Shown: positions 1,196 through 11,683 of the stretch, piece after piece
Layout of the letters: each line of letters starts with the position of its first letter
How positions within the stretch are numbered: position 1 is the first letter of the stretch
Source of the DNA: a virus
DNA length: 20,048 nucleotides
IMG/VR virus record: IMGVR_UViG_3300023172_000262
Span: 1 to 20,048 of that record
Direction: 5' to 3' (one strand)
Made by a program: the position numbers and the translations under genes
Notes under the pieces: generated by a model
What the model was told of the DNA's origin: nothing
Databases searched by the model: none
Seen by the model: the letters and a program-made list of their open reading frames with translations, nothing else

Positions 1196-1864
1196 TTATT
1201 CTCCTAGATTATGTCCATACTCGTCATAGTAATCATCTAAGATGATATTCTTAAACAAATCTTTATAATAATCTATATTTATGTTCAAAAAGACAGAATA
1301 ATTTTTACACTTCTTTTTAAACATAGGAAAGTAAATAGAATCACTTATTTTTTCTTCTTGTGTGTTTAATATGTCAAACATTTCATCAAAGATAATGAAA
1401 GTTTCCAAAGATATTTCACCCAAGTTTTCCATTTTCATAATAAATGGATATTGTCCTTTTATAGATTTGAAAATATTATCAAATCTTAAATCATTTTCTA
1501 CTGCCTTGTTTATAATTTTATAAACATCTTCTTTAAAATTATAAGACATACTCTGAACTCTACGTTTCCATTGTTTATACGATTCGAGAGTTTCGTCGTC
1601 TAATAAGTTACCTGTCCACATATACTCACTATTTAAATTAAGGTAAGTTGCAAGTAAAAATTCTTCAAGTTCTTTTTTCGTAAATCTACGAGAAAGTTCT
1701 TGAAAGGTAGATTTATCTTGTCTCTTATGAAACGCAGATTCTTTTAGGCTAGTTTTTCCTTTATATTGTTTATAATCATAATCGCCTTGGAAATGAGATT
1801 TCATTGCTACATATATTTTAAAGGCTTCGAAATCATCCATCTTTCTACTCGACAATATCATCAT
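1196..1864 (-). CDS. 59: gp59-like loader of replicative helicase
   Basis: This 222-residue protein resembles T4 gp59 (217 aa), which loads the gp41 helicase onto forked or gp32-coated DNA. What I recognise is the collinear pattern: FKIYVAMKSHFQGDYD near residue 15, a KRQDKSTFQELS segment near 48, MWTGNLLDDETLESYKQW near 81, then FKEDVYKI and SLETFIIFDE, each matching the T4 protein in order and spacing. The start overlaps the gp33 stop as ATGA, and no clear Shine-Dalgarno is visible, so translation is probably coupled to gp33. A second ATG follows directly. The 59-33 neighbourhood is the same as in T4. Confidence is high for family; helicase partner is outside the window. Confidence 0.88.
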   Translation of the reverse strand: MMILSSRKMDDFEAFKIYVAMKSHFQGDYDYKQYKGKTSLKESAFHKRQDKSTFQELSRRFTKKELEEFLLATYLNLNSEYMWTGNLLDDETLESYKQWKRRVQSMSYNFKEDVYKIINKAVENDLRFDNIFKSIKGQYPFIMKMENLGEISLETFIIFDEMFDILNTQEEKISDSIYFPMFKKKCKNYSVFLNINIDYYKDLFKNIILDDYYDEYGHNLGE

Positions 1865-2085
1865 AGTGGTAATCGTGTTACAGTTTTAGGAATCATATTT
1901 AGATTTTCGGCTTCGTATTGTATTTTCTCTTTTAAATTAGATGAAACCAATTTAGATACAGATTCTACATCCAAATCATTTTCTTCGCAATACTCTAGAA
2001 TTGCCTCGATATAAGACAATCCAAATTCTTTTGCATATTTTTCTATTTCATTACAGAATTCTTTAGTACTTTTCACATTTAACAT
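1861..2085 (-). CDS. 33: gp33-like late-transcription co-activator
   Basis: This 74-residue acidic protein resembles the conserved C-terminal half of T4 gp33 (112 aa), which links RNA polymerase to the sliding clamp for late transcription. Matching blocks are AKEFGLSYIEAILEYCEEN (residues 18-36) and the following EKIQYEAENLNMIP segment. The N-terminal portion of T4 gp33 is missing, as expected for a shorter marine homologue. The start ATG follows AGGAG by 6 nt. It overlaps gp59 by 4 nt. The presence of T4-type late promoters (TATAAATA) elsewhere in the window fits its role. Confidence 0.85.
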   Translation of the reverse strand: MLNVKSTKEFCNEIEKYAKEFGLSYIEAILEYCEENDLDVESVSKLVSSNLKEKIQYEAENLNMIPKTVTRLPL

Positions 2086-9965: not shown

Positions 9966-10425
9966 AAGTTGTCTCCTGATAAAGTGTAATAGTATTACCA
10001 GGCCGAGAATTCATTGTCAATGTGATAGTTTCATTACCATACTTGGCGGTAACTACATAACCAGTTATTTTATTTACATAAGTATTTGTGTATTGTGTCT
10101 CGCATCTTTGTTGCGTAGTATATCCTGTAGTTGTATTATTTTGTGTGAGTAACCCACCAATTACTGCACCGGCGGCTGCACCCCTATCACTATTTGTTGT
10201 TGTACCGCCAATGAGTCCACCAATAATCATATTGGTCAAAACATTTCCTTGATTTGATTGTTGAATTGGAACTGATACATTATGACAAACTCTATGTGGA
10301 GTTGACTCCGCGAAAGATCTGTATACAGGTTCGATTGATACTACTTTTGCAGTTATGTATTGTCCAGCAAAAACTGGACTACACATAACTAAGGATAAAG
10401 CGGCAAGTTTTATTTTACCTAACAT
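9952..10425 (-). CDS. Exported glycine-zipper protein (17-kDa antigen-like)
   Basis: 157 residues. A signal peptide (MLGKIKLAALSLVMCSPVFA) ends at AFA-type residues about 20, with one Cys at 15 but no clear lipobox. The centre, residues about 63-95, is a glycine-zipper membrane segment (NMIIGGLIGG, GAAAGAVIGGLL) as in Rickettsia 17-kDa antigen and SlyB-like outer-membrane proteins. The C-terminal half has beta-type sequence (GYVVTAKYGNETITLTM) and a Cys pair with the N-terminal domain. It is likely inserted in the envelope and could alter host surface or block superinfection. GGAG precedes the ATG by 7 nt. Confidence 0.82.
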   Translation of the reverse strand: MLGKIKLAALSLVMCSPVFAGQYITAKVVSIEPVYRSFAESTPHRVCHNVSVPIQQSNQGNVLTNMIIGGLIGGTTTNSDRGAAAGAVIGGLLTQNNTTTGYTTQQRCETQYTNTYVNKITGYVVTAKYGNETITLTMNSRPGNTITLYQETTYTFN

Positions 10426-10486: not shown

Positions 10487-10840
10487 TTAGAAAGTAAATG
10501 ATGCACCAATCGTTACATCACCAATTTCCCACTCATCATTAGTTGTGGTCTTTGTATAAGCTTCCAGACCATCTACCCACTTTACAGGCACAGTGATTTT
10601 ATAATCCATTCCTGTAAATTCAATATTTTCAATATCAAATGTTTGGGGCCCAACTTCTACAACACCAAGACCAAAGTCCCAAGAAGCGTCCAAATCCCAT
10701 GTAAATACATTTACATCAGTTTCTAGATTTCTTTCGGCGGTGATCTCATTATCGATAGAAAGACCATTACCCAATTCCCAAGCGTTCGCCGCAGTTGACA
10801 AACCAAGTGCAATTGCACCAGTCAAAATTAAACTTTTCAT
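10487..10840 (-). CDS. Exported beta-rich outer-membrane-type protein
   Basis: 117 residues. The signal peptide MKSLILTGAIALGLSTAANA is clear (cleavage after ANA). The mature part alternates polar and hydrophobic residues (NVFTWDLDASWDFGLGVVE, YKITVPVKWVDGLEAYT) and ends GDVTIGASFTF with a terminal Phe, which is the usual C-terminal signature of Gram-negative outer-membrane beta-barrel proteins. The size allows about 6-8 strands. AAGGA lies 9 nt upstream of the ATG. It is directly downstream of tmRNA on the same transcript. A role in altering the host outer membrane is inference. Confidence 0.78.
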   Translation of the reverse strand: MKSLILTGAIALGLSTAANAWELGNGLSIDNEITAERNLETDVNVFTWDLDASWDFGLGVVEVGPQTFDIENIEFTGMDYKITVPVKWVDGLEAYTKTTTNDEWEIGDVTIGASFTF

Positions 10841-10874
10841 TTATTGATTTCCTTGTTTTATTATAGTTTTAAAA

Positions 10875-10910
10875 TGCGACTATTTCTGTTGCCAAGTAAG
10901 TCGCCAACTC
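10875..10910 (-). repeat. Hairpin repeat copy A
   Basis: 36 nt, 81% identical to copy B. Arms GCGACT (10904-10899) and AGTCGC (10881-10876) form a 6-bp stem. The first pair is G-C here and A-U in copy B, a compensating change that supports selection on the stem. It follows the tmRNA tag stop and precedes the next gene start by 35 nt. Confidence 0.7.
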
Positions 10911-11195
10911 CGTTAGAATCAAGCTGCTAGAGCTGTCTCTACAGGTGCAAAATTATCGTTTGCATTTAGTTTTGTTGACCGAATAACGTAGGTCATCACG
11001 GCAATCTACTCTCATCTCTACTCACCTGTCGATCCTAGTTCGCCCCCATCATAAATGCACTAACTTCAGTCTCCCATACGGGCAACCTATGTTCTGCATA
11101 ACTTCCTGATGCAGCAGGACGTAGTGCATTTATGGTGGAGGCGTTGGGTACTGCCCCCAAGTCCAGTATGTGTGTCGAATCGTATCAATGATTAC
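10876..11195 (-). ncRNA. ssrA: Circularly permuted (two-piece) tmRNA
   Basis: The acceptor piece comes first in the transcript: T-arm TTGGG/CCCAA with loop GGCAGTA (11160-11144), then CGCCTCC (11143-11137) and encoded ACCA ending at 11133. After an 85-nt intervening segment, the coding piece starts at 11047 with GGGGGCG, which pairs over 7 bp with CGCCTCC, followed by GAACTAGGATCGACAGG, the typical tmRNA 5' signature. The tag frame is 10963-10919, resume codon GCA, giving ANDNFAPVETALAA and stop. UUGCCG and CGGUCAA upstream can form pseudoknot PK1. The intervening segment is bracketed by an 11-bp inverted repeat (11052-11062, 11122-11132), likely for processing. It would rescue stalled ribosomes and tag proteins. 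The outer ends are estimates; the coding piece may end before 10876. Confidence 0.93.
11052..11132 (-). repeat. Inverted repeat of the tmRNA intervening segment
   Basis: TAAATGCACTA and TAGTGCATTTA are exact complements (11 bp), separated by 59 nt. The 3' arm begins directly at the CCA end of the acceptor piece. It brings the mature ends together before excision of the intervening segment; a smaller CTGCAT/ATGCAG hairpin lies inside. Confidence 0.85.
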
Positions 11196-11202
11196 GATTT
11201 TA

Positions 11203-11231
11203 TTTATACACTATATTGAATAAAATGTCAA
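11203..11231 (-). promoter_or_regulatory. Consensus promoter of the tmRNA unit
   Basis: TTGACA at 11231-11226, 17-nt spacer, TATAAA at 11208-11203. The -10 region is also a full T4 late motif TATAAATA (11208-11201), so the unit may be read both early and late. The RNA begins with an AATCGT/ACGATT hairpin (about 11199-11178). Confidence 0.85.
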
Positions 11232-11248
11232 TAGATTTTTTCTAAAAA

Positions 11249-11683
11249 TTAAGCAGTGACAATATTATCACACCTGTTGTAAATTTCTGATTCTAAACTA
11301 TGTGCTTCCGTTTCCCATGGCCGCAAATGATAATCCAAGTCAGTTGGAAAAACTTCTTTTTTCCAAACCATAGTTCTGCCAGTTGGTTGGGACAATTCTT
11401 TTCTGCAATATTGTCTAACGTGAATCATTTCGTGACACAAGGTCGTTGCAAAATCCTCTTTTGTCATACTACTATCAAGTCTGATAGTGAATTCTCTATC
11501 GTCTTCGTGCATAACATCGCCGCAAACTCCTTCATCTTCTAAAAGGTTTTTGTAGAGCTCGATGTTAACTACGACATTTTCCATTCTAGGAAATAAAACT
11601 TGTTTTGCAGCACTTGCAAATTTCTCCGCAAGTGCTCTTTTTGATTTTGTTGAACCGAAGATATATAATTCTAAGTCTCTCAT
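11249..11683 (-). CDS. SprT-like zinc metallopeptidase-type protein
   Basis: 144 residues. The zinc motif HEMIH is at 84-88 (CHEMIHVRQY), and a third ligand is likely Glu124 or Glu126 in RPWETEAHSLE. Upstream lie a helix-rich N-terminus and the strand FTIRLDSSM, as in SprT/wss-type and related small phage peptidases. It could cleave a host protein or a DNA-protein crosslink. The start is unusual: there is no ribosome site, and the -10 of its promoter ends only 9 nt before the ATG, so the mRNA would be almost leaderless. Confidence 0.78.
   Translation of the reverse strand: MRDLELYIFGSTKSKRALAEKFASAAKQVLFPRMENVVVNIELYKNLLEDEGVCGDVMHEDDREFTIRLDSSMTKEDFATTLCHEMIHVRQYCRKELSQPTGRTMVWKKEVFPTDLDYHLRPWETEAHSLESEIYNRCDNIVTA

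Follow-up and report, generated by a model that had tools for sequence, protein, structure and literature searches.

The segment cut out of a permuted tmRNA gene is usually treated as spacer, and the locus described here raises the question of whether this view holds for a tmRNA gene carried by a phage. The locus lies within a viral DNA of 20,048 nucleotides (IMG/VR record IMGVR_UViG_3300023172_000262; this whole stretch is called the window), a 20-kb contig with genes almost all on one strand. A preliminary description of the window, made from the sequence alone, had recognized a complete circularly permuted tmRNA on the minus strand of a T4-like phage. It had also caught an inverted repeat around the intervening segment (IVS) and missed that the enclosed segment is a conserved RNA.

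Two of the checks proposed in that description, ARAGORN and the Rfam alpha_tmRNA model, were run and both agree with it. ARAGORN called a permuted tmRNA (tmRNA*) at 10828-11229 on the minus strand with the tag ANDNFAPVETALAA, and RF01849 alpha_tmRNA matched 10873-11235 (minus) at 130 bits (cut-off 50, E 1.1e-35). With a further 120.9 bits against RF04321 tmRNA_permuted (cut-off 47), the window tmRNA clears the gathering cut-off of both alpha-type permuted models. The right-hand ARAGORN boundary, 10828, runs into the next ORF, which starts at 10840, and the Rfam match ends at 10873. A promoter-like sequence (11203..11231, minus) is formed by TTGACA (11231-11226), a 17-nt spacer and TATAAA (11208-11203). 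Read off the sequence, it agrees with the consensus at 11 of 12 positions, in line with the consensus promoter first claimed, and it is absent from the list of a stricter promoter scan because that scan accepts only T as the sixth base of the -10 box. The RF01849 consensus shows UAUAUU where the window has TATAAA, and the first ~40 positions of the model align to the promoter sequence (window 11200-11235, UAUAUU being the -10 box), so that the alpha_tmRNA model seems to take in DNA upstream of the transcript.

The acceptor piece is encoded first (11133..11200, minus; from ARAGORN, Rfam and the sequence). It has a 5' hairpin, AATCGTA/TACGATT (11199-11193 / 11184-11178), a T arm (11160-11144), the acceptor 3' strand (11143-11137) and A73 with an encoded CCA (11136-11133), the CCA end being 11133; its 5' end, for which the sequence gives no defined position, we infer. 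The coding piece (10873..11047, minus) consists of the acceptor 5' strand GGGGGCG (11047-11041), the mRNA-like part and a 3' hairpin. GGGGGCG and CGCCTCC form an acceptor stem of 7 pairs, among them a G3-U70 wobble, with G1 at 11047. The acceptor-first order, encoded CCA and 7-bp acceptor pairing given in the preliminary description are thus all present, and the sequence places the mature ends that it predicted at 11133 (CCA) and 11047 (5' end). The signature it named, GGAUCGAC, is common to the window and alphaproteobacterial permuted tmRNA. The tag frame with its TGA stop (10919..10963, minus; ARAGORN and sequence) reads as first described from 10963 to 10919, and its resume codon, stop and hydrophobic degron end are all present, the tag ending in ALAA. 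Between the mature pieces lies an IVS of 85 nt (11048..11132, minus), predicted to be removed at maturation and enclosed by the 11-bp inverted repeat already noticed, TAAATGCACTA/TAGTGCATTTA. That the locus is a real permuted tmRNA can be regarded as practically certain.

Prophages often integrate into tmRNA genes, and the phage loci score lower with Rfam (54-175 bits) than bacteria do (mostly 143-313 bits), as might be expected if the tmRNA were a piece of a host gene in decay, such as the relic of an attachment site, instead of a functional gene. We consider this highly improbable, however. All parts of the gene are intact, the tags differ between many distinct phages yet remain degron-like, a promoter-like sequence is present, no integrase was seen in the window, and the gene-order position is that found in related phages. 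The resume codon, stop, tag and G3-U70 acceptor pairing are intact in the window and in nearly all related sets, the G3-U70 count in relatives not being independent because G3-U70 was required when the sequences were extracted. We therefore retain the functional gene, and predict with good confidence that it acts in ribosome rescue; a putative take-over of this process by the phage copy, as first suggested, is plausible. A search of 20 phage records, fragments among them, gave no SmpB, and host SmpB is therefore assumed.

The T4-like character originally proposed is supported, as to replication and transcription genes, by a T4 gp33-like late-transcription coactivator (1861..2085, minus; PF16805, E 2.3e-23; phrog_254) and a T4 gp59-like helicase loader (1196..1864, minus; PF08993/PF08994; phrog_269, E 4.5e-51). 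The block PhoH - nuclease - gp33 - gp59, with the tmRNA nearby, is common to the window, phage Melnitz and many viral contigs. Models for gp23 and gp20 had no match in G121, a possibly incomplete relative of 141 kb, and capsid genes lie outside the window. PhoH, a PD-(D/E)XK nuclease, a cell-wall hydrolase, an endolysin-like protein, tRNA-Pro and tRNA-Arg are also encoded in the window, as is a class 3 lipase family protein (PF01764, 6560-7339). The best named relatives of the endolysin are roseophages, from which a roseobacter-type host may be guessed. Directly upstream of the tmRNA is a SprT-like/metallopeptidase-like ORF assigned by homology (11249..11683, minus), and directly downstream, 32 nt away, is a 117-aa ORF (10487..10840, minus) without a match in Pfam or PHROG, which is kept beside the tmRNA in related contigs at 55-65% identity.

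A phage-borne two-piece tmRNA is not new as a kind of gene. Phage Melnitz carries a two-piece SsrA, and the paper on it (PMC9004378) counts 53 two-piece tmRNAs in a phage database, 50 being marine or aquatic. For phage-encoded tmRNA, ORFs in the IVS and such RNAs near tRNAs, the open-access literature gave only the Melnitz paper and tmRNA database papers. Two pattern scans of viral contigs, with at least 120 matches each, gave more than 200 viral loci with the permuted tmRNA pattern. Of 15 loci missed by ARAGORN and checked with Rfam, 14 were confirmed as tmRNA; in the fifteenth, the motif stands at the edge of the stored stretch. We placed 273 mature tmRNAs on a FastTree tree, which, built from ~240-nt RNAs, is weakly resolved and tentative, and on which host and phage tmRNAs separate with a minimum of 4 changes, 1 of them forced by well-supported branches. 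Since these changes are so few, the phage tmRNA lineage tentatively looks old rather than freshly captured. The alpha type given in the preliminary description is upheld; the capture from an alphaproteobacterial host that it suggested is, as a recent event, weakly supported, since the tree separates host and phage copies.

Phage-type permuted tmRNAs with long IVSs also stand on two contigs assigned to cellular organisms, L321 (PBDU01000009.1, Euryarchaeota MAG) and L323 (NHBR02000136.1, Muricauda MAG). Both are probably phage contigs that were mis-binned, a point of possible relevance to the tmRNAs reported in archaeal genomes. Rhizobium rosettiformans W3 (L333, G004:C4:7579-7946) has a second, weak-scoring permuted tmRNA with tag AKYEASNDNVAFEDIRVAA besides its normal chromosomal one; the second copy is possibly prophage-borne.

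The IVS of the window folds into a closing stem and three hairpins, all on the minus strand. The closing stem of 11 bp (11052..11132) pairs 11132-11122 with 11062-11052, has compensatory changes in 6 of its 11 pairs, and is followed by UGAU (11051-11048), which puts A at -2 and U at -1 of the predicted RNase P site. Within it are hairpin 1 (11104..11119; stem 11119-11115/11108-11104, loop CUGCAU 11114-11109), hairpin 2 (11091..11102; stem GUU/AAC 11102-11100/11093-11091, loop AUGCAG 11099-11094) and hairpin 3 (11068..11087; 11087-11085/11070-11068 and 11082-11080/11075-11073). The stem of hairpin 2 has 3 bp in the window and 4 bp in most other sequence types. The 6-nt loops of hairpins 1 and 2 are fully complementary, CUGCAU/AUGCAG in the window and, for example, CUGCAA/UUGCAG or CUGUAA/UUACAG elsewhere, with the complementarity always intact.

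Among 13 sequence types, all five stem pairs of hairpin 1 and all four of hairpin 2 have changed on both sides, as have 2 of the 6 loop-loop pairs, which, unlike hairpins 1 and 2, were partly selected for because the loop motif is fixed in the patterns used to find the copies. Hairpin 3 (helix 4 of the alignment) is paired in 97% of cells, with one pair changed on both sides. In the core of the 13 types, aligned as short, hand-chosen segments without the 0-2-nt linker and with the crossing loop pairs included, 98.5% of cells are paired compared with 72.7% in shuffled alignments, and 52 cells are doubly changed compared with 16.4. The core covariation score is 0.719 against 0.203 for shuffled alignments, was reached in none of 500 shuffles, and collapses when the partners are slid. 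The full element, including one free-standing copy, is likewise 98.5% paired, with 9 pairs changed on both sides (0 of 500 shuffles). The folding energy of the IVS, with the loop-loop pairs left out, is moderately low (z -2.2). We are confident, nearly to the point of certainty, that the IVS is a conserved structured RNA.

Hairpins 1 and 2 abut, with a linker of 0-2 nt, so that an intramolecular kiss would be strained; the loop pairing may be intermolecular, or may be an alternative to hairpin 2 (an H-type pseudoknot). As the first reading of the element, an H-type pseudoknot was set aside because the covariation of hairpin 2 favours two hairpins with complementary loops. A 26-codon frame from the ATG at 11130 was likewise rejected as a gene: it has no Shine-Dalgarno sequence, in the relative L295 a compensatory change in the stem puts a stop in frame, and substitutions track the RNA pairing.

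Rfam 15, GOLLD and ROOL included, has no credible family match in the window IVS or in a free-standing copy. A DNA search of annotated phages with the window or a free-standing element returned tRNA genes only, or nothing. The element-type IVS pattern was found in 0 of 385 sampled alphaproteobacterial genomes, with a pattern that demands CTGYAA and would miss the loop variant of the window. As far as Rfam 15 and the open-access literature show, both the IVS element and the cassette behaviour set out below are undescribed.

A scan for one sequence type that is independent of tmRNA, together with a scan of the collected loci, gave 102 copies of the element in tmRNA IVSs and 18 free-standing copies in tRNA leaders. 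Almost all of the other 25 matches are these copies read on the opposite strand, a truncated IVS or one likely chance sequence that is present twice in the collection, and an earlier scan of shuffled sequence gave 0 matches. Each of the 18 free-standing copies sits immediately 5' of the tRNA that opens a cluster (Trp in 16, Cys in 2) and behind a terminator-like hairpin. Measured from hairpin 1, the tRNA 5' end is 73-80 nt away in these leaders, once 117, and in IVSs the mature 5' end is 57-83 nt away, mostly 69-73. In 286 of 362 genes the IVS ends in UGAU, and A(-2)U(-1) is, according to one paper, optimal for RNase P of E. coli (PMC9433436). The common rule of placement is just 5' of the predicted RNase P site, once per genome. 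Exactly one copy was present in each of the 16 phage contigs checked, and three contigs with a tRNA-leader copy also have a permuted tmRNA, the IVS of which (29, 54 and 65 nt) is without the element. One copy with two possible addresses makes the element look like a gene of its own and not a helper of the tmRNA or the tRNA.

A helper role would nonetheless suit the position of the element, which is always directly 5' of the predicted RNase P site, has a closing stem that continues the acceptor stem, and bears UGAU at the cut; leader structure affects RNase P cleavage (PMC9433436). The element would then be a processing or folding aid in cis that holds the precursor halves and tunes cutting by RNase P/RNase Z, and the excised RNA would be degraded. 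We judge this unlikely, because IVSs are unrelated or shorter in the tree neighbours of the window tmRNA and in other tmRNAs that share 92-94% identity with element-bearing ones. Closely related tmRNAs without the element imply that it is not needed for tmRNA maturation. Most tRNAs in tRNA operons are also without it, and neither a single copy per genome nor covarying complementary 6-nt loops would be needed for such an aid. The reading we favour for the element is instead a small RNA released by tRNA processing.

The slot itself is variable. By simple rules, the 167 distinct IVSs among the matches listed in the two tmRNA-pattern scans divide into 38 short, 17 with the element, 52 with ORFs and 60 other long ones, and in related phages the slot holds small ORFs, other RNAs or almost nothing. 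Mature tmRNAs that are 92-95% identical bear unrelated cargo, and IVSs that are 95-98% identical occur in tmRNAs only 81-84% identical (L379/L071, L501/L295). On the 273-tmRNA tree, the class of cargo switches at least 64 times, and for the element class at least 11 changes are forced by well-supported branches. The IVS behaves as an exchangeable cassette.

These near-identical IVSs in diverged tmRNAs, together with the forced class changes and the two kinds of location, could also have been left by a small mobile or selfish sequence passing by recombination from one phage tRNA-like gene to another, its RNA structure serving its own spread. The single copy per genome speaks against this, no recombinase or endonuclease is known to accompany the element, and homologous exchange via conserved flanks needs neither loop complementarity nor single-stranded structure. 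Such an origin has, in our estimate, a small probability, and it is compatible with the favoured reading, a released small RNA, and not exclusive of it.

Protein-coding cargo is also present. ORFs of at least 30 codons led by a Shine-Dalgarno sequence occur in 57 of 125 IVSs of at least 90 nt, compared with 8.3 (maximum 13) when the interior is shuffled; the set includes loci found with the family-A pattern, and family A is therefore overstated. In four IVS ORF families the changes are biased towards the third position; the counts for positions 1/2/3, made pairwise and thus not independent, are for example 32/10/60, 118/83/221 and 54/46/109. A small single-helix membrane-protein-like family (KWMFKAYIVWSICADI...), with no Pfam or PHROG match above cut-off, is found in many phage tmRNA IVSs (L211, L213, L230, L267, L031 and others), where its stop codon falls at the last IVS bases; free copies stand outside tmRNA in L413, L440 and L420. 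The idea that family A proteins are general tRNA-leader cargo was dropped because only some free copies adjoin a tmRNA or tRNA. In L097, L025, L096, L010, L231, L113 and L273, the IVS ORF stops at a TAG inside the mature coding piece (GGGGGCGAANTAG), so that an RNase P cut would leave a nonstop mRNA, possibly a link to the tmRNA's own task. A second recurrent IVS sequence, apparently structured and unrelated to the window element, is shared by L034, L104, L109, L251 and L307 (ACTCGTTRTRTCCAC...GACGCTAAAGG...AACT). Isolated phages with filled IVSs are Melnitz and the roseophages DSS3P8 and V10.

We propose, as the somewhat more probable course of events, that one transcription unit yields two RNA products, a functional two-piece tmRNA and a separate, released IVS RNA. 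The precursor would fold so that the acceptor strands of both pieces pair, RNase P would cut at 11048/11047, and 3' processing would expose the CCA at 11133. The G3-U70 acceptor would be charged with alanine, host SmpB would bring the alanyl-tmRNA to stalled ribosomes, and the tag would send the product to proteolysis, with ribosomes staying available during infection. The excised 85-nt IVS would be a separate phage non-coding RNA, its 3' end made by tRNA-processing enzymes acting on its host transcript; that it persists as a stable small RNA with a function of its own we put at even chances. More generally, the IVS of phage permuted tmRNAs is probably a general cargo slot. Its cargo in the window would be a new class of small phage RNA, one per genome, always just 5' of an RNase P site (of a tmRNA or a tRNA cluster) and released by tRNA processing, and elsewhere small proteins, some with a stop inside the mature tmRNA.

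By itself the tmRNA is ordinary, and what is new is the IVS element and the cassette behaviour. The IVS of the window is not spacer but a structured RNA that is conserved and has a distribution of its own. In many marine phages related to this one, the segment is a cassette, either protein-coding or RNA, that is swapped between otherwise similar tmRNAs. If our reading is true, the tmRNA gene is a carrier transcript for phage cargo, with small-RNA output tied to tRNA processing. The element is a defined RNA for which one structural prediction, the 6-nt loop-loop pairing, is sharp, and because Melnitz, DSS3P8 and V10 have been isolated, the role of the IVS is open to study in culture.

Melnitz EXVC044M is like the window in having a permuted alpha-type tmRNA in a T4-like marine phage with the PhoH/PD-(D/E)XK nuclease/gp33/gp59 neighbourhood, and the mature RNAs are about 82% identical. 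It differs in that a glutamine riboswitch (RF01739) lies directly 3' of its tmRNA, whereas positions 10600-11500 of the window gave no match to RF01739, even at E 5. The Melnitz IVS (about 10035-10176 of locus L002) has 142 nt with an unannotated ORF led by a Shine-Dalgarno sequence, in contrast to the structured RNA of the window; this ORF (MFKWLSKTRLVVITRDYFRERNRKADAKIPKYLSG...) has relatives in other phage IVSs. Alphaproteobacterial tmRNAs of RF01849/RF04321 share gene order, acceptor pairing, signature and tag type with the window. In 30 bacterial sequences the IVS is short, with a median of 36 nt (range 10-76), whereas phage IVSs are longer (median 86 nt, range 9-266, among the matches listed in the two tmRNA-pattern scans) and often have RNA elements or ORFs inside.

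Other small phage RNAs invite comparison. The pRNA of phi29 multimerises via complementary loops on two arms, and T4 RNAs C and D are small phage RNAs in a tRNA cluster; the element, which has no Rfam match, resembles these without further relation being claimed. GOLLD and ROOL are phage-encoded RNAs with kissing loops that are often near tRNA islands (PMC12286853). They are hundreds of nucleotides long, whereas the IVS element, with no Rfam match to either, has about 80 nt and stands in tmRNA IVSs or tRNA leaders. Like the element, they are phage non-coding RNAs near tRNA genes with loop-loop pairs.
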